Of a DNA stretch of 64,000 bases, positions 5,862 through 63,977 are shown one piece after another (the first letter of the stretch is position 1; every line of letters starts with the position of its first letter). This stretch comes from a virus: IMG/VR virus record IMGVR_UViG_3300022723_000184, positions 62,001 to 126,000 of that record. One strand, written 5' to 3'. The position numbers were made by a program, and so were the translations under genes. A model generated the notes under the pieces. It had not been told where the DNA came from. It saw nothing but the letters and a program-made list of their open reading frames with translations, and did not search any database.

Positions 5862-5881
5862 CCCGCCGGCTAAAAGGCGGG
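5862..5881 (+). promoter_or_regulatory. Leader hairpin, GGCTAAAA loop
   Basis: CCCGCC, loop GGCTAAAA, GGCGGG, followed by ACCACGAAGGG just before the ATG at 5900. The loop and the bases after the stem match hairpins at 10764, 38886 and 63957, while the stem sequence differs but still pairs. Confidence 0.55.
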
Positions 5882-5899
5882 ACCACGAAGGGAAGACCC

Positions 5900-6340
5900 A
5901 TGAGCGACCAGACCAAGCAAGCTGAGACGGCGTCGCTGCCCTCCCCGGAGGACGCGTACAACCACCTGCTCGGCAACGTCCACTCGCAGGTATTCTTCGG
6001 CAAGCTCGCCCAGGTCGGCATCCATCCCCAGACGGAGAAGGAAGCCAACGACCTGTTGGAGCTGGCCGGTAAGCTGCGGCTCGTCAACGACGACCCCGCG
6101 GTGAAGCAGGCTGCCGAAGCGGACAGCAAGTACGCCAAGGCCAACGCCGCCCTCGACGAGCTGTTCGGTAAGAGCGGCGCCATGAAGCAGGCCAGCGCCC
6201 AGGAGCAGGACGTCGCCCTCGACCAGGCTGCCCGCACCCTGGCCCAGGATCCCCAGATCTACAACTCCGTGCTGAGCATCAAGGCGGCCCAGGCCGAGGA
6301 GATCGCGAAGCAGCTGGGGCTCGGGCAGGACGCGGCCTGA
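5900..6340 (+). CDS. Small helical protein downstream of capsid gene
   Basis: 146 aa, ATG 5900 after GAAGGGAAGACCC. It is predicted mostly helical: PSPEDAYNHLLGNVHSQVFFGKLAQVGIHP, then a long Ala/Asp-rich helix region. No membrane segment or known motif is visible. Its position behind the capsid terminator with its own structured leader suggests a separately controlled virion or head-completion protein. Family unknown. Confidence 0.7.
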   Translation: MSDQTKQAETASLPSPEDAYNHLLGNVHSQVFFGKLAQVGIHPQTEKEANDLLELAGKLRLVNDDPAVKQAAEADSKYAKANAALDELFGKSGAMKQASAQEQDVALDQAARTLAQDPQIYNSVLSIKAAQAEEIAKQLGLGQDAA

Positions 6341-6396
6341 ATCTGAGCGAATCCGGACCGATCTAATCGGCCCGCATCCACGGAAGGAACACGACC

Positions 6397-6744
6397 ATGA
6401 GCGATTTCACGTTCGACATGAGCTGCCTCTTCTCGACCGTCAAGAACAACAGCGGTCAGAAGCGGAAGTTTGGCTTCCTGCCGCCGCACGGCCGGGAGCT
6501 GGACGTCGACGAGGAGTTCACCTTGTTCGGCCACGTCACCGAGGCGATGATCGCCTTCGAGCGTGTGACCAACAAGCGGAGCATCGACGCCCTTCAGCGC
6601 TCGCTGGACAGCGGCGACCTCCTGATCCTCAGCACACCGAACCCGGTCCTGCAGGACGTCACGACGGCCGCCGTCCAGATGATCCAGCTCGACAACGGTT
6701 CGCTGACCGTCGTCGACCCATGCTGGAAGGTCTCTGCCTCCTGA
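6397..6744 (+). CDS. Small structural protein, paralogue A
   Basis: 115 aa, ATG 6397 with CACGGAAGG upstream and a small hairpin (CCGAT-CTA-ATCGG, 6358-6370) before that. The core FGFLPPHGRELDVDEEFTLFGHV is shared almost residue for residue with the protein at 7447, as are the central TPNPVLQDVTTAAVQM and the DNGSLTVVDPCW ending. Compact and beta-rich. An intrinsic terminator follows. Unknown family, probably a virion component present in two versions. Confidence 0.75.
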   Translation: MSDFTFDMSCLFSTVKNNSGQKRKFGFLPPHGRELDVDEEFTLFGHVTEAMIAFERVTNKRSIDALQRSLDSGDLLILSTPNPVLQDVTTAAVQMIQLDNGSLTVVDPCWKVSAS

Positions 6745-6777
6745 GCGGCTGCCTGACGGCGACACATCGACACCAAG

Positions 6778-6810
6778 ACGGCCCGCAGGGATACCCTGTG
6801 GGCCGTTTTT
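6778..6810 (+). terminator. Intrinsic terminator
   Basis: ACGGCCCGCAGGG, loop ATA, CCCTGTGGGCCGT (one G-T pair), followed by TTTTT ending at 6810. The stem is strong and the T-run follows directly, between the genes at 6397 and 6831. Confidence 0.85.
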
Positions 6811-6830
6811 CGTAGGCCAGGGAGGGCGCT

Positions 6831-7409
6831 ATGACCGTCGAGGAAAAAAACGAGAAGAAGGGCAAGATGAGTCCGTTCGCCAAGGTCTGTGTCTACATCG
6901 TCACGGCCATAACCCCGGTCGCCGGAACCGCCGTGGTCAACTTCATCCGCGACCTGGATCAGCGGGTCGAGGACGTGGAGAAGACCCAGACCGCGGCGTT
7001 TCACACGATCTACGAGAACGAGACGATCAACCAGCGGCAGTGGGAGATTCTTGGGGCGGTCCGCACCAACTCCGAGGCCAACAGGCGTGTGCTGGACCTG
7101 TACAACCTGCTGCTGGTCAGCGACCAGATCGACATTGAGAAGCTGTCGGAGGCCATGGCCGTGGTCCGGGCGATCGAGCAGTCCGGGCTCTCAGAGGCCG
7201 AGATCAAAACGGCACTCCACACGCTGCAACGGCTCAAGTCGCTCAACCCGTTCGGACACAACGCCCCGAAGCCCGCGGTGCTCCCCACGCTACCGGCGCC
7301 GGTCCCCGTGCCCAACGTCCAGCAGCAGCAATCCACCCGCCCAGATCTCCTGTCGCCCGAGGAGCTTCAGCGGTACATCGAGCAAAAGAAGGGCGGCGTC
7401 AAGAAGTAG
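6831..7409 (+). CDS. Predicted single-pass membrane protein with coiled coil
   Basis: 192 aa, ATG 6831 after CAGGGAGGGCGCT. A short Lys-rich N-terminus is followed by a hydrophobic stretch (about residues 16-37, FAKVCVYIVTAITPVAGTAV), then a coiled-coil region (FIRDLDQRVEDVEKTQTAAF and later heptads), and a Pro-rich tail ending in an acidic/basic helix ELQRYIEQKK. The membrane segment is unusual among its structural neighbours; it could serve lysis timing, membrane anchoring during assembly, or ejection. A terminator just upstream means it starts a new unit. Function unknown. Confidence 0.7.
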   Translation: MTVEEKNEKKGKMSPFAKVCVYIVTAITPVAGTAVVNFIRDLDQRVEDVEKTQTAAFHTIYENETINQRQWEILGAVRTNSEANRRVLDLYNLLLVSDQIDIEKLSEAMAVVRAIEQSGLSEAEIKTALHTLQRLKSLNPFGHNAPKPAVLPTLPAPVPVPNVQQQQSTRPDLLSPEELQRYIEQKKGGVKK

Positions 7410-7446
7410 GTTTATGCTATACTTCTTTCGGCTGCAGGGATGTAGC

Positions 7447-7842
7447 ATGCTCACCGGATGGATCTGTTGTATGAGCACCATCTGTCTTTACTCAACCGTC
7501 AAAAACACGTCCGGCATCCGGATGCGGTTTGGCTTCTTGCCTCCGCACGGCCGGGAGCTGGACGTCGACGAGGAACTGTCGATCTTCGGGTTCGTGGCTG
7601 AGCTGCTGGACGCCCAGGGGGCCAAGGCCTTCCAGCGGGCGATCGACGCCGGCTACCTGGAGATCCTCGATACCCCGAACCCCATCGTCCAGGACGCTGC
7701 GACGGCCGTCGTCCAGATGGTGCGGACCGACAACGGTTCGATCACCGTGGCCGACACCTGCTGGGGCGTTACCGCCAACCTGGTGACCGAGGACGACGAG
7801 GAGCTGTTGACCGAGGGCGATGACGAGATTGTCGTCGAGTAA
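7447..7842 (+). CDS. Small structural protein, paralogue B
   Basis: 131 aa from ATG 7447 (AGGGA 6 bp upstream). ATG codons at 7414 and 7471 in the same frame are alternatives; 7471 has a weak GGATGGA in front. It shares STVKN, FGFLPPHGRELDVDEE, TPNPIVQDAATAVVQM and DNGSITVADTCW with the protein at 6397 and adds an acidic tail (EDDEELLTEGDDEIVVE). Clear duplication and divergence. The membrane protein gene and a terminator separate the two copies. Confidence 0.7.
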   Translation: MLTGWICCMSTICLYSTVKNTSGIRMRFGFLPPHGRELDVDEELSIFGFVAELLDAQGAKAFQRAIDAGYLEILDTPNPIVQDAATAVVQMVRTDNGSITVADTCWGVTANLVTEDDEELLTEGDDEIVVE

Positions 7843-7855
7843 GCAAGGAGGCTTA
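7840..7855 (+). promoter_or_regulatory. Shine-Dalgarno presented in a hexaloop
   Basis: TAAGC, loop AAGGAG, GCTTA. The stem begins with the stop codon of the preceding gene and the loop carries the ribosome site for the GTG at 7860. Same layout as at 11483, 20169 and 27475. Confidence 0.5.
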
Positions 7856-7859
7856 TCCC

Positions 7860-9107
7860 GTGGCCGATCAAGTGAAGATTTCAGCGTTGCCCGCCGCCAC
7901 CACGCCGCTCGCCGGTACGGAGGAGGCGGTCATCGTCCAGGGCGGACAGTCCCGCAGGGTCGCGGTCAGCGAGTTCGCTGGCTCGGTCGCCGTGTTCGGT
8001 CAGGGCAGCGACGGCCTGGTACCCGGTCCGTCGTCCGGCGACGTGTCCGCCAACCGGCTGCTCCAAGCTGACGGTAGCTGGGTGGACCCGCCGACCACTT
8101 TCTCCCAGGACGTCGCGGGCCTGGTCCCCGGACCGACGGCGAGTGACGTCTCGAACAATCGACTGTTGCAGGCCAACGGCGCCTGGGTCGACCCTCCGTC
8201 CGGCGGCGGCATGAACCAGGCCGGCGCCGGTACGTTCAGTGTCACAGGTACCGGCGCCAACGCCGGAGGTCGATGCGACTCGGGCACGGTGACGGTCGAC
8301 GGCAGCGGCGCGCTGTTCAGCGGTTACAAGGCCGGCCCGGCGACGCTGAACGTGAGCGGCGAGGGCGCCACGGTGCTCGGCCTGATTGTGAGCGGCACCG
8401 TTGACTTGGACGCCGACGGCACGTTCGCGATGACGTATCACCTGGACGGCTCGCTGACCAACCCGAACGGGAACACCGGCGCGTCGTTCATGGGCCACAT
8501 GCAGGGCTCCTCGACGGCCGTCGTGCTACAGGGCGACGGCACCTCGGTCCGAGGCCACTTCACCGGCGGCACGGTCACGGTCAGCGGCTCCGGCGCCCGA
8601 TTCCGCGGTCGCTCGATCACGAGCGGCACTTGCACGGTGAGCGGCAGCGCGGCCGTGTTCGATGGGCTCACGCAGAACGGCGCGACCACCACTCTCAGCA
8701 GTGACGTGGCCCGGTTTGAGGGAGCCAACGTCGGCGGCACGGTGCTCGTTGATTCGACTGCGGCCAAGGCGTCGGGCTACTTGGACAATGCGAGTGCCGT
8801 GATGAATTCGACGGGGCTCGCATCGTTTGTGCATGCGTACATCCCCGGCGCCGGCACGGCCGAGGCTACCGCAAACGGCTCGTGGCAAATCGGTATCGGG
8901 TCCTGCACGGTTGCAAACGCTTTCCAGTTGGGTGCCGGTGTGTTGCACTGTCGATTTGAAGCCGGTAGCGAGACGTTCGCGATGTTCGGGGCAACTCCGG
9001 TGGCACAACAGAGCGATCCAGCCAGTCCGGCGGCCGATACCGGCGAGCTTAAGACGGCTGTCGACGCTCTCCGAACCATCATGCTCAACTACGGCATGAC
9101 GGCCTGA
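7860..9107 (+). CDS. Repeat-containing tail fibre-like protein
   Basis: 415 aa, GTG start at 7860 with AAGGAGG upstream. The N-terminus (KISALPAATTPLAGTEEAVI, QGGQSRRVAVSEF) is a short attachment module common in phage fibres and also found at 16944. Two units of LVPGP-DVS-NRLLQA-G-WVDPP follow (about residues 58-118). The rest (about residues 125-370) is a run of Gly/Thr/Ser-rich strands like GTVTVDGSGALFSG and GTCTVSGSAAVFDG spaced evenly, suggesting a beta-helix or beta-prism shaft. The C-terminal helix LKTAVDALRTIMLNYGM is typical of fibre tips or trimerisation ends. Confidence 0.75.
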   Translation: MADQVKISALPAATTPLAGTEEAVIVQGGQSRRVAVSEFAGSVAVFGQGSDGLVPGPSSGDVSANRLLQADGSWVDPPTTFSQDVAGLVPGPTASDVSNNRLLQANGAWVDPPSGGGMNQAGAGTFSVTGTGANAGGRCDSGTVTVDGSGALFSGYKAGPATLNVSGEGATVLGLIVSGTVDLDADGTFAMTYHLDGSLTNPNGNTGASFMGHMQGSSTAVVLQGDGTSVRGHFTGGTVTVSGSGARFRGRSITSGTCTVSGSAAVFDGLTQNGATTTLSSDVARFEGANVGGTVLVDSTAAKASGYLDNASAVMNSTGLASFVHAYIPGAGTAEATANGSWQIGIGSCTVANAFQLGAGVLHCRFEAGSETFAMFGATPVAQQSDPASPAADTGELKTAVDALRTIMLNYGMTA

Positions 9108-9122
9108 TGTCTGTTGGATTGT

Positions 9123-9141
9123 GTTAACCCATTCGGGTAAC
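9123..9141 (+). promoter_or_regulatory. Leader hairpin
   Basis: GTTAACCC, loop ATTC, GGGTAAC (one bulged A), 9 bp before the ATG at 9150, which has only a weak ribosome site. It could influence initiation. Confidence 0.35.
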
Positions 9142-9149
9142 ATCTCGGC

Positions 9150-9470
9150 ATGAACATCAACTTCGACCTTGAGGTCAAACGGCTGTCCGGGGCACCGTTC
9201 CTGGACGGAGGTGCGGCGAAAGAGGGGGAGGAAGCTCCCCCGCTCTTGCTGAAGAACGGCGTGGTCAACTGCCTGTTGGAACCGCAGCAGGCCGATGCCT
9301 CAGCCAAGGGTGCGACCAAGCTCGAACTCTACGAGCTGGCCCGCAAGATTTCGGCGGGCGGCGAGGTCGACCTGTCGGCCGAGGAGATCACCAAGGTCCG
9401 TGAGCGGGTGCAGGCCAGCTCGTACGGCATCGAGGTGATCGGCGCGATCTGCGACATGGTCAAGGCGTAG
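9150..9470 (+). CDS. Small protein between fibre and glycosyltransferase
   Basis: 106 aa, ATG 9150. N-terminal strand region NINFDLEVKRLSGAPF, an acidic Gly/Pro loop, then helices (KLELYELARKISAGGEVDLSAEEITKVRERV). No recognised domain. The fold outline (short beta part, then helices with a TKLELYELARKI segment) recalls small phage proteins placed near tail genes, but nothing assigns a role. Confidence 0.65.
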   Translation: MNINFDLEVKRLSGAPFLDGGAAKEGEEAPPLLLKNGVVNCLLEPQQADASAKGATKLELYELARKISAGGEVDLSAEEITKVRERVQASSYGIEVIGAICDMVKA

Positions 9471-9489
9471 ATGGAGGAGGGCGGTACAG

Positions 9490-10692
9490 GTGCTCTCCCT
9501 CTTCACTCCGACCCATGACCCGAAGCATCTCGAAGAAGCGTACGACTCCCTCCTGGTCCAGGACTACGAGGACTGGGAGTGGGTGTTGGTCCCCAATGGC
9601 GGCATGAAACAGCCGGTACCCGCCCGGGTCACGCAAGATCCCAGGGTCCGGCTGGTCGCCGATCCAAAGACCGACAAGATCGGGGCCCTCAAGAAACATG
9701 CCTGCGACCGCTGCCAGGGCGACGCGTTCATCGAGTTCGACCACGACGACCTGTTGGTGCCCGGGACCCTGGCCAAGATCGCCAAGGAGATTGAGGGCGG
9801 CGCGGGCTTCGTCTATTCGGACGCCGCGGTGTTCAACGACGGCAGCCTCAAGAGCTGGTCGTACAGCCCGACGCACGGTTGGGAGAGCTACGACCTACGG
9901 GTGTACGAGAAGCCCTTCCGGGCCACCAAGTGCTTTGAGCTGACGCCTCGCAGCCTGTGCGAGGTCTACTACGCCCCCGATCACGTCCGCGTCTGGAGCC
10001 GGGAGGCCTACGAGAAGACCGGGGGCCACAACCCGGACATGGGGGTGGCCGACGATCACGACCTGGTGTGCCGCACCTACCTGGCCGGCTTCGCGTTCGC
10101 CCACATCGGCTGCTGCGGTTATCTGTACCGGTACCACCAGAACAACACGGTCAAGGCCCGCAGCGACGACATTGCCCGGCTGCAGAACGCCAACCGGCAG
10201 CGGTACATGGCCCCACTGGCCGAGGAGTGGTCGAGGCGACAGGGGCTGAAGGTGATCGAGCTGCACGAGCTGTTCCGCTTGGGCAAGTGGGCCCCCGACA
10301 AGCCGATCCCGTGCGGCGACGGTGAGGCTGGGCAGGTGGTGGCCTGGGACGTCCTGCAGTTCTTCCCCCCGGGCCTTCAGGTGGCGGTGTTCAACGAGGT
10401 CTACCGGGTGCTGGCGCCGGCCGGGATCATGAACCTGGCGGTGCCCAGCTCCAATGGTCGGTACCAGGACCAGGACCCTCGCCACCGCACCCGGTTTAAC
10501 GAGAACAGCTTTCTCTATTACACGGTCAAGGACTTCGCTCGGGCCAATCCCGAGGTGGCCTGCAAGTTCCAGCTGGTCCAGGTCTACGATGGATTCCCGT
10601 CAGAGGAATACAAGAAGCACGACATGCGCGTGCTCTTCGCGGACTTATGCGCCCTCAAGGGGCAGAGACAGCCGGGACGAGTCCACATCTAG
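9490..10692 (+). CDS. GT2 glycosyltransferase fused to a partial methyltransferase-like domain
   Basis: 400 aa, GTG start 9490 after ATGGAGGAGGGCGG. Residues 1-240 are a GT-A fold family 2 glycosyltransferase: LFTPTHDPKHLEEAYDSLL at the start and FDHDD (about residues 83-88) as the metal/nucleotide-sugar binding DxD-type motif. Residues about 285-350 match the second half of class I methyltransferases seen in phages: VVAWDVLQFF, then EVYRVLAPAGIMNLAVPSS, then DPRHRTRFNENSFLYYT. The SAM-binding glycine-rich motif I that should precede it is not visible, so methyl transfer is doubtful. It may glycosylate virion or host surface components. Confidence 0.75.
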   Translation: MLSLFTPTHDPKHLEEAYDSLLVQDYEDWEWVLVPNGGMKQPVPARVTQDPRVRLVADPKTDKIGALKKHACDRCQGDAFIEFDHDDLLVPGTLAKIAKEIEGGAGFVYSDAAVFNDGSLKSWSYSPTHGWESYDLRVYEKPFRATKCFELTPRSLCEVYYAPDHVRVWSREAYEKTGGHNPDMGVADDHDLVCRTYLAGFAFAHIGCCGYLYRYHQNNTVKARSDDIARLQNANRQRYMAPLAEEWSRRQGLKVIELHELFRLGKWAPDKPIPCGDGEAGQVVAWDVLQFFPPGLQVAVFNEVYRVLAPAGIMNLAVPSSNGRYQDQDPRHRTRFNENSFLYYTVKDFARANPEVACKFQLVQVYDGFPSEEYKKHDMRVLFADLCALKGQRQPGRVHI

Positions 10693-10716
10693 CTCGCCGT
10701 TCGGGACGGCCAGTGG

Positions 10717-10722
10717 TATAAT
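10717..10722 (+). promoter_or_regulatory. Possible extended -10 promoter TGGTATAAT
   Basis: TATAAT preceded by TGG fits an extended -10 element. It sits in the loop of GTGG ... CCAC (10713-10727), in the 106-bp gap after the glycosyltransferase gene. No -35 match. It would transcribe the leader hairpin at 10764 and the gene at 10799. Confidence 0.4.
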
Positions 10723-10763
10723 GCCACCAGGACTACGTTTGGCGAGTATCAGCGCAATGCCCG

Positions 10764-10784
10764 CTCATCGGCCTGGAAGATGAG
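10764..10784 (+). promoter_or_regulatory. Leader hairpin, GGCCTGGAA loop
   Basis: CTCATC, loop GGCCTGGAA, GATGAG, then ACGCGGAGG as ribosome site and ATG at 10799. Member of the family at 5862, 38886 and 63957: similar loop, similar following bases, different stem that still pairs. Confidence 0.6.
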
Positions 10785-10798
10785 ACGCGGAGGCAAGG

Positions 10799-11158: not shown

Positions 11159-11160
11159 TC

Positions 11161-11472: not shown

Positions 11473-11482
11473 CGCCGGCTGA

Positions 11483-11500: not shown

Positions 11501-11503
11501 CTC

Positions 11504-12937
11504 ATGGTAGACATCCGAGCAGGCCAACGCGTCCGGATCTGGGACGACGACAACGATACAGAGGTGATGGTAGCCGTCCGCGACGTCGCGGCCGGCGGCG
11601 CCGAAGCCGGCATCACGGCCATGGCCGTCCGCGACGATGGCGGTGGCTCCCTGGTCTCGGCCGACGGTGACTACACCCCGCTCTCCGTCGACGCCAGCGG
11701 CAACCTCCGCGTGGTTGTGACCGGTGGCGGCAATGCCTCGGTCGCGGTCGATGACAGCGCGTTCACCCCGGCGACCGACTCGGTTACCGTGATCGGGGCG
11801 TTCGCCGACGAGACGACGCCCGATTCCGTGGATGAAGGCGACCTGGGTGCGGTCCGCATGACGCTCGACCGCCAGCTCCGCGTCCGTGTGGAGTCAGAGT
11901 ACCCCGAGTCGTCGACCCATTCGTCCGGCGACTTCGGCATTCTCAACCTCGCGGTCCGCAACGACGCCGGCACCCCGCTGGCCGCGGACGGCGAGTACAT
12001 CCCACTGACGACCAATGCCTCTGGCGACCTGCGGGTCGCGGTGGCCTCGGGTACGACCGCCCCGTCCAAGACTGACGACGACGCGTTCGCGATCGGCTCG
12101 GACCTGGTCAGTCCGTCCGGCTTCCTGGCCGACGAGACGGCCCCGGATTCCGTGGACGAGGGCGACGTGGGCCTGGCCCGCATGACCCTCGACCGTCGTC
12201 AGCTGATGGTCCTCACCGACGCGACCACCGAGTCGCAGCGGCTCGGGATCGACTCCGACGGCGAGCTGACGGTCAAGATCAACCAGACCGGCTCGAACAA
12301 CAATGTCCAGAACGACGAGACGATCGCCGACGATGCGGCGTTCGCCGTGGCCACGAGCCCTGTGTTCCCCATGGGCGCCCTGGCCGACGAGACGGCCCCG
12401 GACTCCGTGGACGAGGGGGACATCGGCGCTCCCCGCATGACCCTGGACCGGAAGCTCCTGGTTCGCGTCGTGGGTTCGACGGACGCCAACCGCCTGGAGG
12501 TTACGGCCTCGGGTGCCGTTCACACCAACCTCTCGGAGGTCAACGGCGCCACTCACAGCGAGACCAACCCGGTCTTCGTCCAGGTGGTGAGCACCGCGGT
12601 CAGCGGCAGCGAGATCCACGACTACAGCGTGGCGACCGTGGCCAAGGACGCGACGGACAACCACGACTACACCGTGGCCAACAGCACGTTCTTGCTCAAG
12701 AGCGTGGCGGTGACGGCCTCGGGCGCGATGAAGGCCGAGATCCAAACCGGCCCGGTGGCCGGTTTGGCGACGGTGGCCGTGATCTTCACCAGCCCGAGCA
12801 ACCCGTTCAACCAGATCTTCTTCGACCCGCCGGTCGAGGTCCCGGTGGCCTCCACGGGCACGGTCCGGGTGATCCGGCGGAACGATGACAACCAGAGCCA
12901 GGACCTGTACTCTACGATCATCGGCAACGACGTCTGA
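11504..12937 (+). CDS. Fibre-like protein with triple repeat
   Basis: 477 aa, ATG 11504. Three units of about 90-100 aa each contain a DDAF / ADET-PDSVDEGD-G-RMTLDR motif (near residues 85-130, 185-230 and 275-325). Each is followed by a region with short strands such as ADGEYIPLTTNASGDLRVAV. The unit is a recurring module in phage and virion appendage proteins. The C-terminal 120 residues form a separate beta-rich domain (YTVANSTFLLKSVAVTASGA, FFDPPVEVPVASTGTVRVIR) that may be a receptor-binding or capping head. Confidence 0.75.
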   Translation: MVDIRAGQRVRIWDDDNDTEVMVAVRDVAAGGAEAGITAMAVRDDGGGSLVSADGDYTPLSVDASGNLRVVVTGGGNASVAVDDSAFTPATDSVTVIGAFADETTPDSVDEGDLGAVRMTLDRQLRVRVESEYPESSTHSSGDFGILNLAVRNDAGTPLAADGEYIPLTTNASGDLRVAVASGTTAPSKTDDDAFAIGSDLVSPSGFLADETAPDSVDEGDVGLARMTLDRRQLMVLTDATTESQRLGIDSDGELTVKINQTGSNNNVQNDETIADDAAFAVATSPVFPMGALADETAPDSVDEGDIGAPRMTLDRKLLVRVVGSTDANRLEVTASGAVHTNLSEVNGATHSETNPVFVQVVSTAVSGSEIHDYSVATVAKDATDNHDYTVANSTFLLKSVAVTASGAMKAEIQTGPVAGLATVAVIFTSPSNPFNQIFFDPPVEVPVASTGTVRVIRRNDDNQSQDLYSTIIGNDV

Positions 12938-12981
12938 TAGGCGGGTGTCGGCCGATGCCAATCTCTTAGGAAGGATTTGTC

Positions 12982-13233
12982 ATGGCCGACATCCGAAGGA
13001 ACGACGACGAGCCTGGAGAGCAGCACGACCCCGTCCAGGTCGAGAAGAAGACGACCAAGAAGGACATCGACCTGGACGAACCCAAGGACTCTTTCAGGGA
13101 GATCCAGTTGAAGCTGCCTGAGACGGGCAACCTCGACGTCGTCCAGATCGAGCTGCTGGCCACGATCAACAAGCAGCTGTCGGAACTGATCAAGCTGAAC
13201 GACCGGATCGCCAAGGCCCTGGAAGCCAAGTAA
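12982..13233 (+). CDS. Small charged protein
   Basis: 83 aa, ATG 12982 after TAGGAAGG. Very charged N-terminus (DIRRNDDEPGEQHDPVQVEK) and a C-terminal amphipathic helix (QIELLATINKQLSELIKLND) able to form a coiled coil. Probably an assembly or adaptor peptide for the neighbouring fibre proteins. No family known. Confidence 0.65.
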   Translation: MADIRRNDDEPGEQHDPVQVEKKTTKKDIDLDEPKDSFREIQLKLPETGNLDVVQIELLATINKQLSELIKLNDRIAKALEAK

Positions 13234-38156: not shown

Positions 38157-38874
38157 GACACCCGATATCGATTTCGACCAGGCGTATACGTCGTGGGCCT
38201 CGGACAGGTCTCCGCAGGCCAACGCCACGATCCTGAAGGTTCTCGACCCGGTGATCAGCCAGGCGGTGCAGACACACGTCGGTACGAGCAACCCGCTGCT
38301 CAAGGCCCGGGCCCGGAAGATGACGCTCGGCGCCCTGGGCTCGTTTGACCCGAAGCGGGGCCGGCTCAAGAGCCACTTGTATTCGCAGCTCCAAGGCCTC
38401 AAGCGGCAGCATGCCAAGCAGCAGAGCATCTTCCGGGTGCCCGAGCGGCTGATGTTGGACCGCCGAGGTCTGAAGGCGGCGCAGCAGGAACTGGAAGACG
38501 AACTGGGGCGGGAGCCGACGGACCAGGAGCTGGCGACGCGCACCGGGTTCTCGGTCGACCGGATCTCTCGCATCCGGCAGTTCAGCCCCGCGATGAGCGA
38601 GGGCTTCTTCTCGACGGTGGGCGAGGGCGGCATGGTCCCACAGTCCACGAGCCCGATCAGCCAGCAATCGTCGTGGGTCCAGGTGGTGTACGACGACCTG
38701 GGCCCGCTCGACAAGAAGATCATGGAGTGGACGCTGGGCCTCAATGGCCAACCCCGACTCTCGAACCAGGAGATTGCTTTGAGGCTCAAGAGGTCCCCGG
38801 GCGCCATCAGCCAGCGAAAGGCGCTGATCCAGCAGATGCTTGACGAGGAGCAGGACCTTTCCCCTTTTCTATGA
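38149..38874 (+). CDS. Sigma-70-like RNA polymerase sigma factor
   Basis: 241 aa, ATG 38149, overlapping the hub gene end by 8 bp. Region 2 relic: ILKVLDPVISQAVQTHVG, then LGALGSFDPKRG and LKSHLYSQLQGLKRQHA, lacking the aromatic melting residues of standard region 2.3. Region 3: RVPERLMLDRRGLKAAQQEL, DELGREPTDQELATRTGFSV is an almost textbook sigma-3 sequence. Region 4: LDKKIMEWTLGLNGQPRLSN, QEIALRLKRSPGAISQRKAL with a helix-turn-helix. It may direct host polymerase to phage promoters or be packaged in the virion. Its place inside a baseplate operon is unusual and suggests late production. Confidence 0.8.
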   Translation: MPETPDIDFDQAYTSWASDRSPQANATILKVLDPVISQAVQTHVGTSNPLLKARARKMTLGALGSFDPKRGRLKSHLYSQLQGLKRQHAKQQSIFRVPERLMLDRRGLKAAQQELEDELGREPTDQELATRTGFSVDRISRIRQFSPAMSEGFFSTVGEGGMVPQSTSPISQQSSWVQVVYDDLGPLDKKIMEWTLGLNGQPRLSNQEIALRLKRSPGAISQRKALIQQMLDEEQDLSPFL

Positions 38875-38885
38875 AACTATGCCAG

Positions 38886-38905
38886 CTCGTCGGCTTAAAA
38901 GCGAG
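38886..38905 (+). promoter_or_regulatory. Leader hairpin, GGCTTAAAA loop
   Basis: CTCG (bulged T) C, loop GGCTTAAAA, G CGAG, then ACAAGG. Preceded by TGCCAG; the whole block from 38880 resembles that at 39894. It lies between the sigma-like gene and the ATG at 38932. Confidence 0.5.
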
Positions 38906-38931
38906 ACAAGGCGAGACCTCTGAGGTAGACC

Positions 38932-39408: not shown

Positions 39409-39893
39409 TGACCGTGACCGGATCCGTTGCTGCCTACGCCGATCGTCAGATCGACATGCTGGCTTTCCAGAACCCAGGTATCGGGAGCCTGGAACTGGTC
39501 GACTTGATCCTCGTCCCCGACGGCGGCAGCGGGTTCAGCATCGCCGGCATCGCCAAGCTCGCCCAGCGGTTCTTGATCGAGCTGCTGACTGAGCAGGGAT
39601 CGATCCCGTACGACACGGTCCGCGGCTCGACGTTCCTCACCGAGCTTCGGCAGGGTAGGGTGCGTACGACGCCGGCCGCCGAGACCGCGTTCTACCTGGC
39701 GCTGGACCAGGTGAAGCTCCAGCTGCAGCTGGAGGAGTCCGACGACATGCCCGACGACGAACGGTACGGGCGAACGACCCTCGACTCGATCGTGCTGTCG
39801 CCGGCCGATACGGTAAAACTACGACTGACGTTGTTCAGCTTGGCGGGGACCGGCGTGACGCTGTTGCTCCCGATTGAGACTACGCTTGGATAG
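39408..39893 (+). CDS. Baseplate wedge subunit, gp25-like
   Basis: 161 aa, ATG 39408. Contains the gp25/gpW-like core GIAKLAQRFLIELLTEQGSI followed by PYDTVRGSTFLTELRQGRV and a C-terminal strand pair (TVKLRLTLFSLAGTGVTLLL), with a helix LDQVKLQLQLEESDDMPDDE between. Length and position before the gp6/gpJ-like wedge gene match. In T4 and P2 this subunit joins the sheath to the wedge. Confidence 0.8.
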   Translation: MTVTGSVAAYADRQIDMLAFQNPGIGSLELVDLILVPDGGSGFSIAGIAKLAQRFLIELLTEQGSIPYDTVRGSTFLTELRQGRVRTTPAAETAFYLALDQVKLQLQLEESDDMPDDERYGRTTLDSIVLSPADTVKLRLTLFSLAGTGVTLLLPIETTLG

Positions 39894-39929
39894 TGCCAGC
39901 TCGCTGGCGAATAGAGCGAGACGATAAGG
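39894..39929 (+). promoter_or_regulatory. Leader element similar to 38880
   Basis: TGCCAGCTCGCTGGC, then CTCGC/GCGAG pairing around GGCGAATAGA, then GACGATAAGG before the ATG at 39940. It shares TGCCAGCTCG, GGC, AGCGAGAC and AAGGC with the block at 38880. Confidence 0.5.
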
Positions 39930-43224: not shown

Positions 43225-43815
43225 ATGCAAGAAATCATCCTCCCAAACAAGAGCGTCTCTGGTCGGGTCCGCGCCCACGAGGTTCGTGGCGACGTCTGGG
43301 ACCTTCTGACCGCGTGGGACCACAACCAGGTCCTCTACGGCTGGGGGACCGTGGTCGGCACGCTGCTGACCAAGGGCCTGTCCAACTACCGCATCGGTGG
43401 GATGTACCTGGAATACGAGAACGTCGCGGACCCCGACGACCCGGTGTCGGCCCCGACCTTCGACCGGAGCGGCGGCAAGAGCTACTACGACGGCCTGGGC
43501 CTCAGCGCGACCCGCGACTACCTCCGCGTCCCGCTGACCGCCTCGCTCTTGAGCAGCAGCGATGAGACGCTGTTCCCGGACGGCAACGTGATGACGTTCT
43601 TCGCCCAGTCCCAGGGCGTGACGGGGGCCAACGGCAAGGCGTTCAGCGACACGGTCAACTCCAAGATCTACGGAGGGGCCCTGGTCGCTTTCCTGGATGA
43701 GGCGGACGCGGATCAGGATATCGTCTTCAGCCGCTTCTACTTCTCGGTGGCGAACCAGCAGGTGAAGTTGCCCACCTCCCAGATCGGGTTGGAGTGGGAG
43801 ATCACGCTGCAGTAG
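43225..43815 (+). CDS. Small baseplate-periphery protein
   Basis: 196 aa, ATG 43225 after GGCAGGGAAGCC. Beta-rich with a polar N-terminus (MQEIILPNKSVSGRVRAHEV), SNYRIGGMYLEYENVADPDD, LRVPLTASLLSSSDETLF, and a C-terminal strand pair QVKLPTSQIGLEWEI. No family recognised. Its distance from the next gene (73 bp) contains a conserved intergenic element. Confidence 0.65.
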   Translation: MQEIILPNKSVSGRVRAHEVRGDVWDLLTAWDHNQVLYGWGTVVGTLLTKGLSNYRIGGMYLEYENVADPDDPVSAPTFDRSGGKSYYDGLGLSATRDYLRVPLTASLLSSSDETLFPDGNVMTFFAQSQGVTGANGKAFSDTVNSKIYGGALVAFLDEADADQDIVFSRFYFSVANQQVKLPTSQIGLEWEITLQ

Positions 43816-43822: not shown

Positions 43823-43880
43823 AGTCACACCTTGTAAGCCGGTGCGCTGGCATGGTGACGCTAGTATAGCTAGATAAGGG
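43823..43880 (+). repeat. 58-bp intergenic element, copy C
   Basis: It aligns along its whole length with 62038-62096. Shared blocks include AGTCAC, CCTT, CCGGT, GGCATG, TGAC, AGTA and GCTA. It is followed by the ribosome site and ATG at 43889. It contains CTAG-TATAG-CTAG. Confidence 0.6.
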
Positions 43881-46643: not shown

Positions 46644-47273
46644 ATGCCCTATTCGACTGCCGGCAAAAACCTGATGCTTGACGCGCTGAACGCCGTCAAC
46701 CCGACGACGCCGATCACGCATGCGTCACTGCACGACGACATCCCCGACGACACGGGATCCAACGAGATCTCTGGCGGCACCCCGGCCTACGCCCGCCAGG
46801 CGATCGACTTCGACGCGGCGGCCGGCGGTTCGATGGCCAAGAACGCGACCGACCCGGTGTTCGACGTTCCGGCCTCGACCGACGTCTTCTACGTCGGCTT
46901 TTGGTCGGCGGTGTCCGGCGGCACCTTCCTGGGCTATGCTCCGATCAACGGCGGTGCCATCGACGGGGTGGGTGACGGCCTGGACACCGGCGACATCATC
47001 AACGCGTCGAACCACGGGCTGAACGACGACGACCGCGTCGTCTTGTACGCTCCGGTCGGCCAGTCGCTGCCCGGCGGCCTCAACAGTACGACGCTCTACC
47101 ATGTGGTCAACCGTGTGGCGAACGTCAGTTTCCAGGTCTCGCTGACCCAGGGCGGTGGTGCGGTAACCATCACCAGCGACGGCACCGTCTACTTCCAGAA
47201 GGCCACGCCCGAAAGCTTTGCCTCGCAGGGCCAGCTGACGCTGGACACGGCGACGCTCAAGCTCGAAGAGTAG
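46644..47273 (+). CDS. Virion protein with fibre-like beta domain
   Basis: 209 aa. ATG 46644 is chosen because AAGGAG lies 7 bp upstream; the open frame upstream overlaps the previous gene. N-terminal helix (AGKNLMLDALNAVNPTTPI), then THASLHDDIPDDTGSNEISG-type text known from phage tail proteins, RQAIDFDAAAGGSMAKNATD, and DDRVVLYAPVGQSLPGGLNS. Beta-rich. Presumably an adhesin subunit. Confidence 0.65.
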   Translation: MPYSTAGKNLMLDALNAVNPTTPITHASLHDDIPDDTGSNEISGGTPAYARQAIDFDAAAGGSMAKNATDPVFDVPASTDVFYVGFWSAVSGGTFLGYAPINGGAIDGVGDGLDTGDIINASNHGLNDDDRVVLYAPVGQSLPGGLNSTTLYHVVNRVANVSFQVSLTQGGGAVTITSDGTVYFQKATPESFASQGQLTLDTATLKLEE

Positions 47274-60077: not shown

Positions 60078-60078
60078 T
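60073..60078 (+). promoter_or_regulatory. Possible -10 element TATAAT
   Basis: A perfect TATAAT hexamer overlaps the stop codon of the glycosyltransferase gene, just upstream of the HNH remnant. No good -35 match. Confidence 0.3.
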
Positions 60079-60084
60079 ACTTCC

Positions 60085-60228
60085 ATGGGTAACGGTAACG
60101 CAAAAGACATGGCCGGTTAACGGTTTGGTCGCCTCCTGGTCCTTCAACGAGAAGCGGTTGACGGAGCCAAGAACGCCATGTGGTTGGTCCGTTACCCGAG
60201 CCCTGACCACCCCCGTCGGGGGTCGCGA
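60085..60228 (+). pseudogene. Decayed N-terminus of an HNH endonuclease
   Basis: ATG 60085 opens MGNGNAKDMAG, followed by TAA (60118-60120), then in the same frame RFGRLLVLQREAVDGAKNAM and WLVRY. With the TAA read as CAA this gives GQRFGRLLVL, the usual start of HNH homing endonucleases of the type present intact at 60585 (LEGRKFSRWAVVGYA). After WLVRY the similarity stops and the frame runs on into the gene at 60229. A one-base nonsense change and loss of the remainder explain it. Confidence 0.7.
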
Positions 60229-60588
60229 ATGAAAACTGGTCCGCAGCTAGTCATCAACCACATGATCTTCTTCGACATGATCGGAGACCCCGCCTTCTAC
60301 TCGAAGGTGCCGGCCTTCTTCTTCATGCGGGACCAGGGTCTGGCCATCCACAAGAAGATCACCGACGCGGTCCTGGAGAAGGCAGGGTGCCGGGGCTGCA
60401 CGAACATGCGCCAGCAGGTCTGGCCGATCTTCCAGGTCTTCGCTCAGCAGGCCTTCCTGCTTGGCCAGGAGAATCCGGAAGCTCTAAAGCCTTTGGGGGA
60501 TTACATTGCAGGGAAGAAGGGCTACCGACCTACAGAAATACTGCTGTATTTCAGATATCAAGGAATAACGCATAAACTTGTAATATGA
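60229..60588 (+). CDS. Small phage protein interrupted upstream by HNH relic
   Basis: 119 aa from ATG 60229. The frame is open back to 60121, but residues before MKTGPQ belong to the HNH relic; a GC-rich hairpin (CCCCC-GTC-GGGGG, 60210-60222) sits before the ATG. The protein starts VINHMIFFDMIGDPAFYSKV, has a CRGC pair and helices QVWPIFQVFAQQAFLLGQEN, ending TEILLYFRYQGITHKLVI. A+T content rises over its last 90 bp towards the next HNH gene, so the C-terminus may have been altered by that insertion. Confidence 0.65.
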   Translation: MKTGPQLVINHMIFFDMIGDPAFYSKVPAFFFMRDQGLAIHKKITDAVLEKAGCRGCTNMRQQVWPIFQVFAQQAFLLGQENPEALKPLGDYIAGKKGYRPTEILLYFRYQGITHKLVI

Positions 60589-61244
60589 AAACTACAACGA
60601 AACCAAAACACGGAAGATTTAACGACCTAGAAGGTCGCAAATTTTCTAGATGGGCCGTAGTAGGTTATGCAGGCAGGAAACTTACCGGGAAACAGATGAA
60701 GACTTTCTGGTGGTGCCGTTGCTCTTGCGGTACCACTCGGCAGGTGGAGGCGCAATCTCTGAGTTCCGACGGATCTAAGTCTTGCGGATGTTACGAACGC
60801 GAGGTTGCGGGCGAGCACAGGCGAGTACACGGCGGCACAGGAACAGTAGAGTACACAACCTGGAAAAGGCTTCGCAGCAGATGCAACAATCCAAAATCGC
60901 CTGACTGGAACAATTACGGGGGAAGAGGAATAAGGGTATGTGCCGAGTGGGACGCTATTGAAACCGGATTCTCCAAGTTCTTGCTCGATATGGGTCCCAG
61001 GCCAGGCGACTATTATTCCGTAGAGCGCAAGGACAACGACGGACCGTATAGCGCGGAAAACTGCGTATGGGCGACAAACTACGAACAGAGCCGAAACAGG
61101 CGAACTAACCACATGTTTACCTGGGAAGGTGAAACTCTGTGTCTGAAAGACTGGGCAAATCGTTTCAACATTAAATACGACAAGTTGCGTCGCAGGTTGT
61201 TAAAATACGGATGGCCTTTTTACCGGGCAATCACGACAGCGTAG
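60585..61244 (+). CDS. HNH homing endonuclease
   Basis: 219 aa, ATG 60585 overlapping the previous stop by four bases. N-terminal LEGRKFSRWAVVGYA, WWCRCSCGTTRQVEAQSLSS and SCGC (zinc site). The nuclease part includes YTTWKRLRSRCNNPKSPDWN, NYGGRGIRVCAEW, YSVERKDNDGPYSAENCVWA and a C-terminal DNA-binding helix-turn-helix-like LKDWANRFNIKYDKLRRRL. A+T-rich relative to surroundings. Same family as the relic just upstream, so the locus was invaded twice or an older copy is being replaced. Confidence 0.9.
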   Translation: MKTTTKPKHGRFNDLEGRKFSRWAVVGYAGRKLTGKQMKTFWWCRCSCGTTRQVEAQSLSSDGSKSCGCYEREVAGEHRRVHGGTGTVEYTTWKRLRSRCNNPKSPDWNNYGGRGIRVCAEWDAIETGFSKFLLDMGPRPGDYYSVERKDNDGPYSAENCVWATNYEQSRNRRTNHMFTWEGETLCLKDWANRFNIKYDKLRRRLLKYGWPFYRAITTA

Positions 61245-61261
61245 ACGCAAGGAGGCCAGGG

Positions 61262-61714
61262 ATGGCCAGAGGCATCAGGCTCACACGACACTCGGTCAAG
61301 AACGCCAACCACTGGCACCTCCGCGCCTTCCGGCTGCGGATCGAGGTGGCCGAGACCAGCCCCGACATGAGCCGATACGTCTTCGTCTACCGGCGGCACC
61401 CTCCGGACCCGTACACCGGCGAGGTCTTCGACGAGTTCTGCACCGTCGCGAGCCCCGTTGACATGAGCGAGTACCCGGTGGGCGCCCCCGACCCCAACCT
61501 GCCGTTCCCGTTCTTCCGAAAGGATTTCATTGAGGTCGACGTCCGGTCGCTCAAGGACTTCGACGAGACGTGGGACCTTGTCGTGAAGCAGGTCTGCGTC
61601 CTGACCCAGGCCCTCGACGACATGGAGAACCTGGTGCAGGACGAGGAGGCGGTATGCGGTACGCTGCCCAGCGGTTCCGAGTCAGTCTCCGAGTCCGAAT
61701 CGGTCTCGTCGTAG
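61262..61714 (+). CDS. Small structural or accessory protein
   Basis: 150 aa from ATG 61262 (AAGGAGG upstream); the longer frame from 61211 starts inside the HNH gene. Beta-rich: HWHLRAFRLRIEVAETSPDM, RYVFVYRRHPPDPYTGEVFD, FCTVASPVDMSEYPVGAPDP, then an acidic helix and a Ser/Glu tail SESVSESESVSS like that of the protein at 56196. Presumably a virion protein of the adhesin periphery. Confidence 0.65.
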   Translation: MARGIRLTRHSVKNANHWHLRAFRLRIEVAETSPDMSRYVFVYRRHPPDPYTGEVFDEFCTVASPVDMSEYPVGAPDPNLPFPFFRKDFIEVDVRSLKDFDETWDLVVKQVCVLTQALDDMENLVQDEEAVCGTLPSGSESVSESESVSS

Positions 61715-61722
61715 GAGCGGCC

Positions 61723-62037
61723 ATGGCCACAGCAGCACACAAGCTGGTCGTGATCCAGGACAACACCCTGAAGAACATGGCCAAGCAAACGCGGTTCACC
61801 AAGGAGTTCCCGTTCCTTCAGTCGCTCAACCGACTGAACCAGGGCGCCCCGAAGCGAGGTTGCGGCGGGTGCCGATCGAGCAACAACCGGGTGTCCGAGG
61901 TATTCGCTGCGGCAAAGCGTGCGCTGGCCTCGCTGCCGGCCTCGAAGAAGCGGGTGCTCAAGGAGCTGCTTGGGGCTAAGAAGGTGCGGGTTACCTACCG
62001 TCAAGCAGGCGGGAAGACGGTCGAACTGACCTTTTAA
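61723..62037 (+). CDS. Small basic protein with Cys motif
   Basis: 104 aa from ATG 61723 after TAGGAGCGGCC; the frame upstream overlaps the previous gene. Basic and helical with FPFLQSLNRLNQGAPKRGCG, a CGGC pair, and a long basic helix AAAKRALASLPASKKRVLKE. It could bind nucleic acid or act in head/tail assembly. Short C-terminal strand VRVTYRQAGGKTVEL. Confidence 0.6.
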   Translation: MATAAHKLVVIQDNTLKNMAKQTRFTKEFPFLQSLNRLNQGAPKRGCGGCRSSNNRVSEVFAAAKRALASLPASKKRVLKELLGAKKVRVTYRQAGGKTVELTF

Positions 62038-62096
62038 AGTCACGCCTTTTGAACCGGTATGCCGGCATGTTGACACCAGTACGGCTACCTAAATAA
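62038..62096 (+). repeat. 58-bp intergenic element, copy D
   Basis: Aligned with 43823-43880. It contains the perfect palindrome ATGCCGGCAT and TTGACA (a possible -35 hexamer) and is A+T-rich at its 3' end. It begins directly at the stop of the previous gene. The rest of this gene-free stretch up to 62328 holds the hairpin at 62141, a weak TCGG-TATTATAG-CCGA stem (62177-62192) and the terminator at 62197. Confidence 0.55.
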
Positions 62097-62140
62097 ACGT
62101 GTTTTTTGCGTCAAAATACATGCAGGCAAATTAGCCCGGT

Positions 62141-62161
62141 CTCATCTTCTAAACCGATGAG
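62141..62161 (+). promoter_or_regulatory. Hairpin with the 10764 stem but another loop
   Basis: CTCATC, loop TTCTAAACC, GATGAG: same stem as at 10764 and also a nine-base loop, but not in front of a start codon. It may be part of a regulatory leader or a processing site. Confidence 0.35.
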
Positions 62162-62196
62162 CAGGTATTAAGATCCTCGGTATTATAGCCGAACCG

Positions 62197-62222
62197 CACC
62201 CGGCACATCGCCGGGTGTTTTT
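62197..62222 (+). terminator. Intrinsic terminator
   Basis: CACCCGGC, loop ACATC, GCCGGGTG, then TTTTT (62218-62222): a textbook terminator closing the structural region before the gene at 62329. Confidence 0.9.
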
Positions 62223-62328
62223 CTTTTCACCCCACCCCTCGTCCCGGTAGGCGTCCTGCTTGCCGGGGCTTTCGTCGCGGGCCTGTTGTCCGCGACTACT
62301 ACCACCTCCTCCAGAAGGGAAAATTGTC

Positions 62329-62613
62329 ATGATCGATCACAACCCCGTCCCCGCCATCCTCGTCCAGGACATCATCGACAACCAGGATCTGGGCCGTGCG
62401 ACCAACTTGGTCGCCTACGTCCGCAAGAATCTGCTGACCTCAGCCCGCGAAACAGGCCTCAGCAATATTGCGGTTGAGCGTTTAATCTCCAGCACGTTGG
62501 AACGGCTGACCCGTGGGGTGCGTGAGAATGCACCAAAAGACCGTCGATTTTTGTTCTGGGTCAACGACCGTCTCCTGCGGCGTGAGATCCTCGAAGGCCG
62601 GATCGCCGCGTAA
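62329..62613 (+). CDS. Small helical protein
   Basis: 94 aa from ATG 62329 after AGAAGGGAAAATTGTC; in-frame sequence upstream to 62260 runs through the terminator tail and is not preferred. Helical: VPAILVQDIIDNQDLGRATN, VERLISSTLERLTRGVRENA. It resembles small regulatory or lysis-accessory proteins by size only. It starts a new unit with the lysozyme-like gene. Confidence 0.55.
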   Translation: MIDHNPVPAILVQDIIDNQDLGRATNLVAYVRKNLLTSARETGLSNIAVERLISSTLERLTRGVRENAPKDRRFLFWVNDRLLRREILEGRIAA

Positions 62614-62648
62614 GCGATCGGCATCGATCCTTCAGAGAAAGGGACAAC

Positions 62649-63113
62649 ATGTTCAAATTCGCACCGTTCCTGCTACTCGTCGTCTGTTCGGCGACACTGG
62701 CCGACCAGTCTGCCGACGAGTCACAGATCAACTGGAATCTGGTCTTCAAGTGCCTTCACATGAAGGAGGCCAGCGGTAAACTGAGCCCCGATCGTGGGGA
62801 CGACGGTAAGGCCCTTGGACCCTACCAGATCCACGAGGTTTACTGGAAGGACGCGCTCAAGGGTGATCCGTCGATCGGCGGGAAGTACGAGGACTGCAGC
62901 GACAAGGCCTACTCCGAGAAGGTGATCAAGGCTTACATGCGACGGTGGCTCGTGGTGAGCCGGGTCGGCAAGGTGATGACCTACGAACTCATTTGCCGGT
63001 CCCACAACGGGGGAGGCCCTAGGGCCTGGCCCAAGCACCCCGGCCACATGCGGTGGCTTCAGGCCTCCCAGGCGTACTGGGAGTCTGCGGTCTTCGATCC
63101 CCTGCGGAAATAG
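62649..63113 (+). CDS. Exported lysozyme-like muramidase
   Basis: 154 aa, ATG 62649 after GAGAAAGGG. Residues 1-19 are a secretion signal (MFKFAPFLLLVVCSATLA). The mature part follows the invertebrate-type (i-type) lysozyme plan: E40 in LHMKEASG as candidate acid, DRGDDGKALGPYQIHEVYW (residues 48-66), then a helix KVIKAYMRRW and SHNGGGPRAW (119-127), where the lysozyme family has HNGG. With a signal peptide it would reach the periplasm without a holin, or be a signal-anchor-release endolysin. It is most likely the cell-wall lytic enzyme of the phage. Confidence 0.7.
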   Translation: MFKFAPFLLLVVCSATLADQSADESQINWNLVFKCLHMKEASGKLSPDRGDDGKALGPYQIHEVYWKDALKGDPSIGGKYEDCSDKAYSEKVIKAYMRRWLVVSRVGKVMTYELICRSHNGGGPRAWPKHPGHMRWLQASQAYWESAVFDPLRK

Positions 63114-63158
63114 ACCGAAAATCACAGGTCCCGATTGACCTTGATTGACGACGCAATA

Positions 63159-63174
63159 CCGGCTCATCAGCCGG
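63159..63174 (+). promoter_or_regulatory. Leader hairpin
   Basis: CCGGCT, loop CATC, AGCCGG, 20 bp before the ATG at 63195. GGAG (63184-63187) follows as ribosome site. Confidence 0.35.
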
Positions 63175-63194
63175 GAAAACTAGGAGAAGCTATC

Positions 63195-63929
63195 ATGAAG
63201 ACTCTGATCATCGCTATCGCTGCCGTGCTGCTCGTGTGTCCGGCGTTCGGGCAGGAGCAGGAGACGAAACTTCAATCACTCGGCGCTCGTCGGGCCATGG
63301 TCCGCTACAAGGCCAAGGTCGCGAACGCAGAGCGCCTGTACAAGGCCGCACTGTTGCGAGCGGCGAAAGACCTGAAAGAAGAACTTCAAGCCGACCTCAT
63401 CAAGGTTACGAAGACCGGCAACCTGGAGTCCGCCAACCAGGTGAAGGCCGAGCTGGATCGCATTCAGGCGGAAATCGAAAAGATGACCAACCCTGACGCT
63501 AAGCCGAGCAATACGCCCAGCGACTCCGTTGAAATCACTGAGGGCGATCCGAATGTCAAAGTCGGGAAACTCAAGCCCACTCGCGACTGGTGGACGCTCG
63601 CCCAACTCAAAGCAGGTGACAAAGTTTACTTCCGGGCGGCTGGAACATGGGAGATCTTTGGCGTCGGCACCTGCGGGCCTGACGGCGGCCGTGGAAGCAA
63701 GGGCGACAAGAACGACCCGCTCCCCGGCGCTCCAGTGGGCGCAATTCTCGGCAGGCTTCCTGGCTCCACCGACGAGAAGCGGGCTACTGGCTTTGTGATT
63801 GGGCGCAGCGCCGTATTCACTGCCAAGGAGGATGGCGCGTTCCAGCTTCGCGTCAACAAGACGAGCGGCTACATCTACAAGTGCGATGGCGAACTGGCCT
63901 ACAAAGTCAAGGTCGTTCCAGCCAACTGA
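63195..63929 (+). CDS. Secreted coiled-coil protein with PA-IL-like lectin domain
   Basis: 244 aa from ATG 63195. Signal peptide MKTLIIAIAAVLLVCPAFG then Q20. A coiled coil follows (ANAERLYKAALLRAAKDLKE, VTKTGNLESANQVKAELDRI), a phrase common in secreted proteins of Planctomycetota. The C-terminal domain (about residues 115-242) has the PA-IL/LecA-type layout: LKAGDKVYFRAAGTWEIFG, GPDGG, LPGAPVGAILGRL, AVFTAKEDGAFQLRVNKTSG, and ends LAYKVKVVPA. It appears to be a host-derived gene carried by the phage, perhaps acting in the periplasm or on the outer surface after lysis. Confidence 0.75.
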   Translation: MKTLIIAIAAVLLVCPAFGQEQETKLQSLGARRAMVRYKAKVANAERLYKAALLRAAKDLKEELQADLIKVTKTGNLESANQVKAELDRIQAEIEKMTNPDAKPSNTPSDSVEITEGDPNVKVGKLKPTRDWWTLAQLKAGDKVYFRAAGTWEIFGVGTCGPDGGRGSKGDKNDPLPGAPVGAILGRLPGSTDEKRATGFVIGRSAVFTAKEDGAFQLRVNKTSGYIYKCDGELAYKVKVVPAN

Positions 63930-63932
63930 TCC

Positions 63933-63946
63933 AAAAAGTACTTTTT
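63933..63946. repeat. AAAAAGTACTTTTT palindrome, copy 4
   Basis: Perfect core, starting 3 bp after the stop of the gene at 63195. GATC lies on its left (63928-63931), so in the reverse reading it matches copies 2 and 3, which have GATC on the right. Confidence 0.85.
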
Positions 63947-63956
63947 AAAATACCCG

Positions 63957-63977
63957 CATATCGGCTTAAAAGATATG
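63957..63977 (+). promoter_or_regulatory. Leader hairpin, GGCTTAAAA loop
   Basis: CATATC, loop GGCTTAAAA, GATATG, then ACGAAAGGGAGG and the ATG at 63996. The loop is identical to that at 38892-38900, while the stem is different and fully paired. Confidence 0.65.

Follow-up and report, generated by a model that had tools for sequence, protein, structure and literature searches.

A family of hairpins in a 64,000-nucleotide stretch of phage DNA (positions 62001-126000 of the 201,946-base virus record IMGVR_UViG_3300022723_000184, from a phage of ~200 kb; the stretch is called the window below) almost certainly consists of CRISPR (clustered regularly interspaced short palindromic repeats) repeats, namely the CRISPR RNA (crRNA) scaffold of a Cas12m effector. 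Solitary CRISPR repeats in phages have so far been read as anti-CRISPRs or as mini-arrays reliant on host Cas proteins; here one phage has, besides the effector and its array, about 17 scaffolds dispersed through the genome, of which several are joined to translation starts and one stands before the effector gene. This makes testable the role of cleavage-deficient, adaptation-less phage CRISPR systems, a long-standing question. We put at roughly 0.5 the probability that Cas12m controls these leaders by binding them and blocking translation. If true, this would be translation control by a CRISPR protein via repeat-bearing leaders and not via guides.

The analysis started from five window hairpins described in an earlier note, all of which were found, with stem starts at 5862, 10764, 38886, 39900 and 63957; the fourth is present, its stem beginning at 39900 and not at 39894, where the note had put it. 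Downstream of each come (G)AC, then a stretch resembling a Shine-Dalgarno sequence, then a start codon. When the whole record was scanned with a consensus, about 26 sites scored at least 15.6; in three shuffled genomes, scanned on one strand each, the only site scored 14.4. The list of five was real and also incomplete, as the scan adds three minus-strand copies within the window (stems 43846, 62061 and 62161). About ten of the scan sites lie in one place at a spacing of ~72-74 nt; this revealed a CRISPR array and argues that the hairpin itself is a CRISPR repeat.

Architecture and covariation of the scaffold

The scaffold covers 36 nt with the layout NNN-N-G-[6 bp]-N'N'N'-(6 nt)-[6 bp]-AC. 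In alignment A1, which holds 18 copies from this genome, the G before the 6-bp stem and the A and C after it are invariant (columns G13, A35 and C36), stem columns 14-19/29-34 are paired, and the loop starts with GGC or GGT. This loop start pairs with the 5' flank as GCC/GGC or ACC/GGU, with GC to AU changes among the phage's own copies, so that the conserved GGC of the earlier note is not a plain loop but one half of a pseudoknot. The note's other structural claim, that compensating stems mark a selected RNA structure, is borne out: at least six different stems retain pairing, 97.9% of the alignment cells are paired, six of the nine pairs have changed on both sides (18 double-change cells), none of 500 shuffles reaches the score, and slid structures are paired in only 23-42%. 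In a set of 25 scaffolds from diverse Cas12m loci, 99.6% of the cells pair, with 64 double-change cells and again 0/500 shuffles, and the three pseudoknot pairs all covary across the loci.

The same layout in other letters occurs in arrays beside other cas12m genes, for instance in Pelobacter (GCG/CGC), Methylomonas (CCC/GGG) and Virus Rctr197k (AGA/TCT), and many IMG/VR phages likewise carry it beside cas12m. It agrees with the published geometry of the Cas12m2 scaffold, in which a G(-23).A(-2) pair, six pairs C(-22..-17)/G(-8..-3) and a second stem or pseudoknot are held mostly by backbone contacts (PMC10442227). The G, the 6-bp 3' hairpin and the A-C that would give the G.A pair are all present, as is the second stem or pseudoknot between flank and loop, and Cas12m and an array of the same repeat stand in one genome. 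Because Cas12m2 contacts mostly the backbone, it can be rationalized that the stem sequence is free while G, A and C are fixed. The resulting rule (a 6-bp stem of any sequence, a pseudoknot free in sequence but covarying, and a fixed G...AC) constitutes a searchable model for Cas12m-bound RNAs, which escape repeat finders on account of their differing stem sequences. Rfam returned no family for the window at its cut-off, and one window stretch compared with public phages gave no DNA similarity.

The Cas12m effector and its array

The effector gene lies outside the window, in L006 (record 145801-165800), as an open reading frame of 589 residues (L006:3796-5565) directly before the array (L006:5703-6447). 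The latter consists of 11 repeats of 36 nt, ATCGTAATACCTGCTCATCGGTTTAGAAGATGAGAC, with spacers of 36-38 nt and one of 20 nt, and is preceded by a perfect TATAAT. The protein matches Cas12u1 of PADLOC (1.8e-98) and, among solved structures, Cas12m (5.9e-67) and Cas12m2 (about 1.5e-26); its RuvC residues align as D-E-D, and only one protein of the record has a Cas12f1-like TNB domain. By these sequence matches the effector is a type V-M (V-U1) Cas12m. Cas1 (Pfam PF01867) was not found in the record, the search for adaptation genes being limited to Cas1, with Cas2 and Cas4 not searched; within that limit the type V-M combination of a Cas12m effector with no adaptation genes is found here. Characterized Cas12m proteins with D-E-D, H-D-D or N-D-D residues bind double-stranded DNA without cutting it, need a T- or C-rich protospacer adjacent motif (PAM), and mature their pre-crRNA by processing inside the repeat (PMC11013384).

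With the known type V-M systems (Cas12m2, GoCas12m, MsCas12m) the phage system shares full-length effector homology, a 36-nt repeat of the Cas12m-scaffold type, an array beside the effector, the lack of a detected Cas1 and a D-E-D variant as in several characterized members. It differs in residing in a ~200-kb phage genome, in having at least 16 scaffolds outside the array, and in seven leader copies (one of them weak, before cas12m). A single-sequence search of IMG/VR for near Cas12m relatives gave none and an alignment query gave 40; the exact repeat pattern, searched in the same database, gave none.

Two further observations concern the array itself. Eight nt of its first spacer match the array's own leader on the opposite strand, which is suggestive and post hoc. 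From the last repeat (L006:6412-6447) it is 55 nt to the ATG of the gene downstream (L006:6503-7078), and the array end may thus itself be that gene's leader.

Solitary copies in this phage and in other genomes

Covariance model R1, run on the whole record, finds 27 places at E<1e-4, the array accounting for 11 of them and solitary copies (E 1e-10 to 5e-5) for the other 16, and two weaker sites, L005:3650-3693(-) at E 0.036 and L006:3742-3775(+) at E 0.36. The earlier note's expectation of further copies elsewhere in the genome holds, as eight of the solitary copies at E<1e-4, both weak sites and the 11-copy array lie outside the window. The note had also confined the family to leaders of virion units, which is too narrow: scaffolds form the array, lie antisense at gene ends, and precede cas12m and a UvsX/RecA-like gene, and they are not always sense.

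Seven copies are sense leaders, with 11-27 nt and a Shine-Dalgarno-like stretch between the last C of the scaffold and the start codon. In the window, the plus-strand scaffold at 5849..5883 (CCCGCC/GGCGGG, loop GGCTAAAA, GCC/GGC pseudoknot; 32.7 bits, E 2.3e-5) ends 16 nt before ATG 5900 of the gene following the major head protein, and that at 10751..10786(+) (E 2.9e-9), whose stem CTCATC/GATGAG is identical to the array stem, ends 12 nt before ATG 10799, with a TATAAT further upstream near 10717. The copy at 38873..38907(+) precedes ATG 38932 (CTCG(T)C/GCGAG, with a bulge or the alternative 3' arm GGCGAG; E 1.6e-7); the copy at 39887..39922(+) (CTCGCT/AGCGAG; E 1.7e-6) precedes ATG 39940 of a baseplate J-like gene, and the one at 63944..63979(+) (CATATC/GATATG; E 3.3e-8) stands 16 nt before ATG 63996 of a membrane-protein-like open reading frame of 64 residues. 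A protein bound at these places would cover the ribosome-binding sites of five window genes, which suits the control of translation supposed in the note. The two remaining leaders lie at record 174595, before the UvsX/RecA-like gene, and at L006:3742-3775(+), where a weak hairpin, CTGCTCATC-gacaagag-GATGAGAC, lies 21 nt ahead of the ATG of cas12m; it has the stem of the array (CTCATC/GATGAG), the following AC and an altered loop. As a separate observation, window 38873-38925 and L005:3640-3693(-) both hold a second possible 3' arm (CTCGYC...GCGAG/GGCAAG ACAA GGCGAGAC), so that two alternative hairpins are possible there.

Most copies on the other strand have their end at the stop codon of the plus-strand gene lying upstream: they are adjacent to it at 7642 and 62061, a few nt away at 5244 and 43846, and overlap it at 46795 and 53605. 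In the window, the scaffold at 43824..43859(-) (E 7.2e-9) lies behind a TATACT (43868-43863), its "guide" being antisense to the 3' end of the gene 43225-43815; that at 62039..62074(-) (CATACC/GGCGTG; E 1.7e-6) has a guide antisense to a plus-strand open reading frame whose stop codon ends at 62037; and that at 62139..62174(-) (array-type stem CTCATC/GATGAG, ACC/GGT pseudoknot; E 2.1e-9) lies behind a TATAAT (62187-62182). The antisense label is uncertain for 136049(-), which may instead be the leader of a minus-strand gene, as an ATG lies in its 3' arm. A -10-like hexamer (at least five of six positions, 14-20 nt before the stem; background 0.65%) accompanies seven of the 11 other-strand units and none of the seven sense leaders, the latter as expected if leaders ride on operon mRNA. 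By this pattern both kinds are placed for transcription, the leaders with their operon and the others from a predicted promoter of their own.

A search with the major head protein gave 65 related IMG/VR loci at 88-57% identity. Of 50 of these records, one encodes a Cas12m, which is distant and of the H-D-D type. Homologous elements in relatives, where the earlier note had proposed a covariance search, did not turn up: with the general model R2, none of 28 Cas12m-less relatives shows a scaffold at E<=0.01, and three of the closest, read whole (621 kb), show none even at E<=1, while the narrower R1 gives one weak site among the 50 (G037, E 0.0076). The scaffold is absent at the syntenic junctions in G001, G002 and G007, that is, at the same genes. 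The junction gap at 38886 measures 4-18 nt in relatives and 57 in this phage, that at 39900 measures 13 nt in G002 and 46 here, and that at 43846 measures 16 nt in G002 and 73 here; junction gaps in relatives are often short, some longer.

On the other hand, of 28 records searched as Cas12m carriers, this one among them, 21 have scaffolds (arrays included). Dispersed copies also occur in Cas12m phages unrelated to this one. Copies far from any array are found in G063 (at 13078, 40898, 52881, 60068 and 126481) and also in G072, G062 and G058, and Virus Rctr197k has one dispersed scaffold beside a tRNA. Within the sequences compared, dispersed scaffolds go with Cas12m, and leader use is so far seen just in this phage.

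Some side observations belong to these other carriers. The Cas12m effector of Rctr197k is annotated merely as "similar to transposase", and a second array with an unrelated repeat (KX853510.1:119281-119535, L011:24282-24536) lies beside a second transposase-like gene, Rctr197k_117. The 153-kb phage record G069 (L152, L160, L164-L171) has two Cas12m matches and 81 scaffold matches in several clusters and dispersed sites. Downstream of cas12m in L129 (about 11816-12990; same contig region as L128 and L135), irregularly spaced scaffolds with several compensating stems form no uniform array.

Leader control by Cas12m and competing readings

The hairpin is probably bound by some phage protein, and Cas12m, which would read the scaffold by shape (free 6-bp stem, flank-loop pseudoknot, terminal G.A and C), is the candidate. 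In the sense leaders, what follows the scaffold in the place of a "guide" is the ribosome-binding site of the gene downstream, with its start codon. Since the Cas12m2 heteroduplex comprises 17 bp (PMC10442227), a leader-bound Cas12m would hold the next ~17-20 nt as its guide, i.e. the Shine-Dalgarno stretch and the start codon. MsCas12m processes pre-crRNA by cutting within the repeat (PMC11013384), which makes an mRNA scaffold a plausible substrate. Binding or 5' processing would cover or cut off the translation start and so block or change translation. Cas12m, as an RNA-binding protein, would then repress several phage genes and, as the hairpin in front of cas12m suggests, also regulate its own. 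From the minus-strand copies, most of which have a predicted promoter of their own, short RNAs resembling crRNAs would arise, each with the antisense of a gene end as its guide. Somewhat less probable than leader control as such is the full picture, in which a cleavage-deficient effector has turned into a general RNA-binding regulator that represses, processes or marks its own mRNA and several late and recombination genes, the antisense scaffold RNAs forming a second branch of this control. Phage-borne V-U systems (PMC7162821), solitary repeats as RNA anti-CRISPRs (PMC10651486) and mini-arrays (PMC11656645) are already published; a literature search that left out preprints and most subscription papers found no phage with its own effector's repeats spread genome-wide and fused to translation starts.

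Several points weigh against leader control. Copies in sense and in antisense are similar in number, and insertion into short gaps between genes could therefore account for the leader position. In other Cas12m phages scaffolds before start codons are rare, and the cas12m-leader hairpin occurs in one of 35 cas12m genes, that of this phage alone, where it lacks the GG loop and the pseudoknot and reaches just 15.1 bits. As no other phage was found with the same sites, the covariation is that of copies in one genome and of other systems' arrays, and in the comparison across loci the solitary rows from L129, L143 and L159 came from a scan that rewards pairing, the array rows not being so chosen. 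Isolated leaders are no more stable than shuffled sequences (z of -0.1 to 1.4 for six of seven, -2.1 for the cas12m leader), and the evidence accordingly lies in covariation and covariance-model scores, not in energy.

The strongest rival, ahead of functionless dispersal and then of Racr-like decoys, is that all copies, those in mRNA leaders included, are solitary crRNA genes that guide Cas12m to competing phages or to the host; we regard it as unlikely, though clearly the first to be considered after leader control. The minus-strand promoters would start RNA at the scaffold, and the promoter-plus-scaffold cassettes at 5244 and 7642, which have the same 35 nt ahead of the stem and are identical up to the last repeat base, recur with different guides. 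The triplet before the solitary guides in the phage's own genome is the scaffold GAC and not a T- or C-rich PAM, which should protect the phage from its own guides. Competing phages are indeed the targets of published phage spacers and mini-arrays (PMC7162821; PMC11656645), and virus-borne mini-arrays resemble the present units in being short viral repeats able to yield crRNAs. Those mini-arrays, however, rely on the Cas proteins of the host, and targets have been matched to them, whereas this phage supplies its own effector, and neither its array spacers nor its solitary guides have matches beyond chance in its own genome or in the fetched relatives, phages and plasmids, except for one partial 28-nt match to an unrelated 3'-untranslated-region-like element. 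Moreover, guides that consist of Shine-Dalgarno and start-codon sequence, as in the sense copies, are poorly suited to specific targeting. An element of ~28 nt resembling a 3'-untranslated region, GCGTCAAAATACATGCAGGCAAMTTAGCC, follows a TAA stop ahead of terminator-like sequence at window 62098-62139 (read on +) and at L008 about 3520-3555.

Dispersal of the repeat, or of a promoter-repeat cassette, by recombination or unknown transposition, leaving copies mostly functionless in place, is improbable. The lineage-specific gains in short gaps and the failure to find Cas1 (Pfam PF01867) in the record fit it, as do the direct repeats CTCCTAC (5244) and TCTAGC (43846), p about 0.005 each. Drift would, however, have broken both the stems, at least six of which still pair, and the pseudoknot, which covaries. 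Flanking direct repeats mark just 2-3 of 19 units, most sites being without them, and insertion with target-site duplication was dropped as the principal explanation on this ground. At L001:5222-5290(-) and window 43824-43875(-) a TTA stands just before the outer direct repeat, which may reflect either duplication of a target site or a PAM with a seed that matches the guide of the unit itself, a suggestive and post hoc observation.

Still less credit is due to the idea that the copies are RNA anti-CRISPRs (Racrs), solitary repeat units that trap Cas12m from the host or a competing element. Racrs are promoter-driven solitary repeat mimics in phage genomes (PMC10651486), a description that seven of the 11 other-strand units share and the sense leaders do not, and the diverged stems might suit other Cas12m proteins. 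Yet Racr-type units were described without associated cas genes, whereas this record has a matching Cas12m and array, so that decoys would trap the phage's own effector. The present copies also differ from Racrs in being many per genome, in the compensated divergence of their stems, and in that about half are sense leaders within mRNA and without a promoter.

Finally, operators of a dedicated non-CRISPR translational repressor of the RegA or MS2/R17 coat type, the kinship drawn by the earlier note, share with the hairpins a position by the ribosome-binding site before start codons and probable protein binding, but are a barely tenable explanation, as the architecture is that of the CRISPR array of the same genome and of arrays beside other cas12m genes, with Cas12m the likely binder of what is a crRNA scaffold, and as close relatives with the same virion genes and without Cas12m lack the element.

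Elsewhere in the genome, a helicase/primase-like gene of 2248 residues (L003:7058-13804) contains an intein (Hint) and LAGLIDADG domains.

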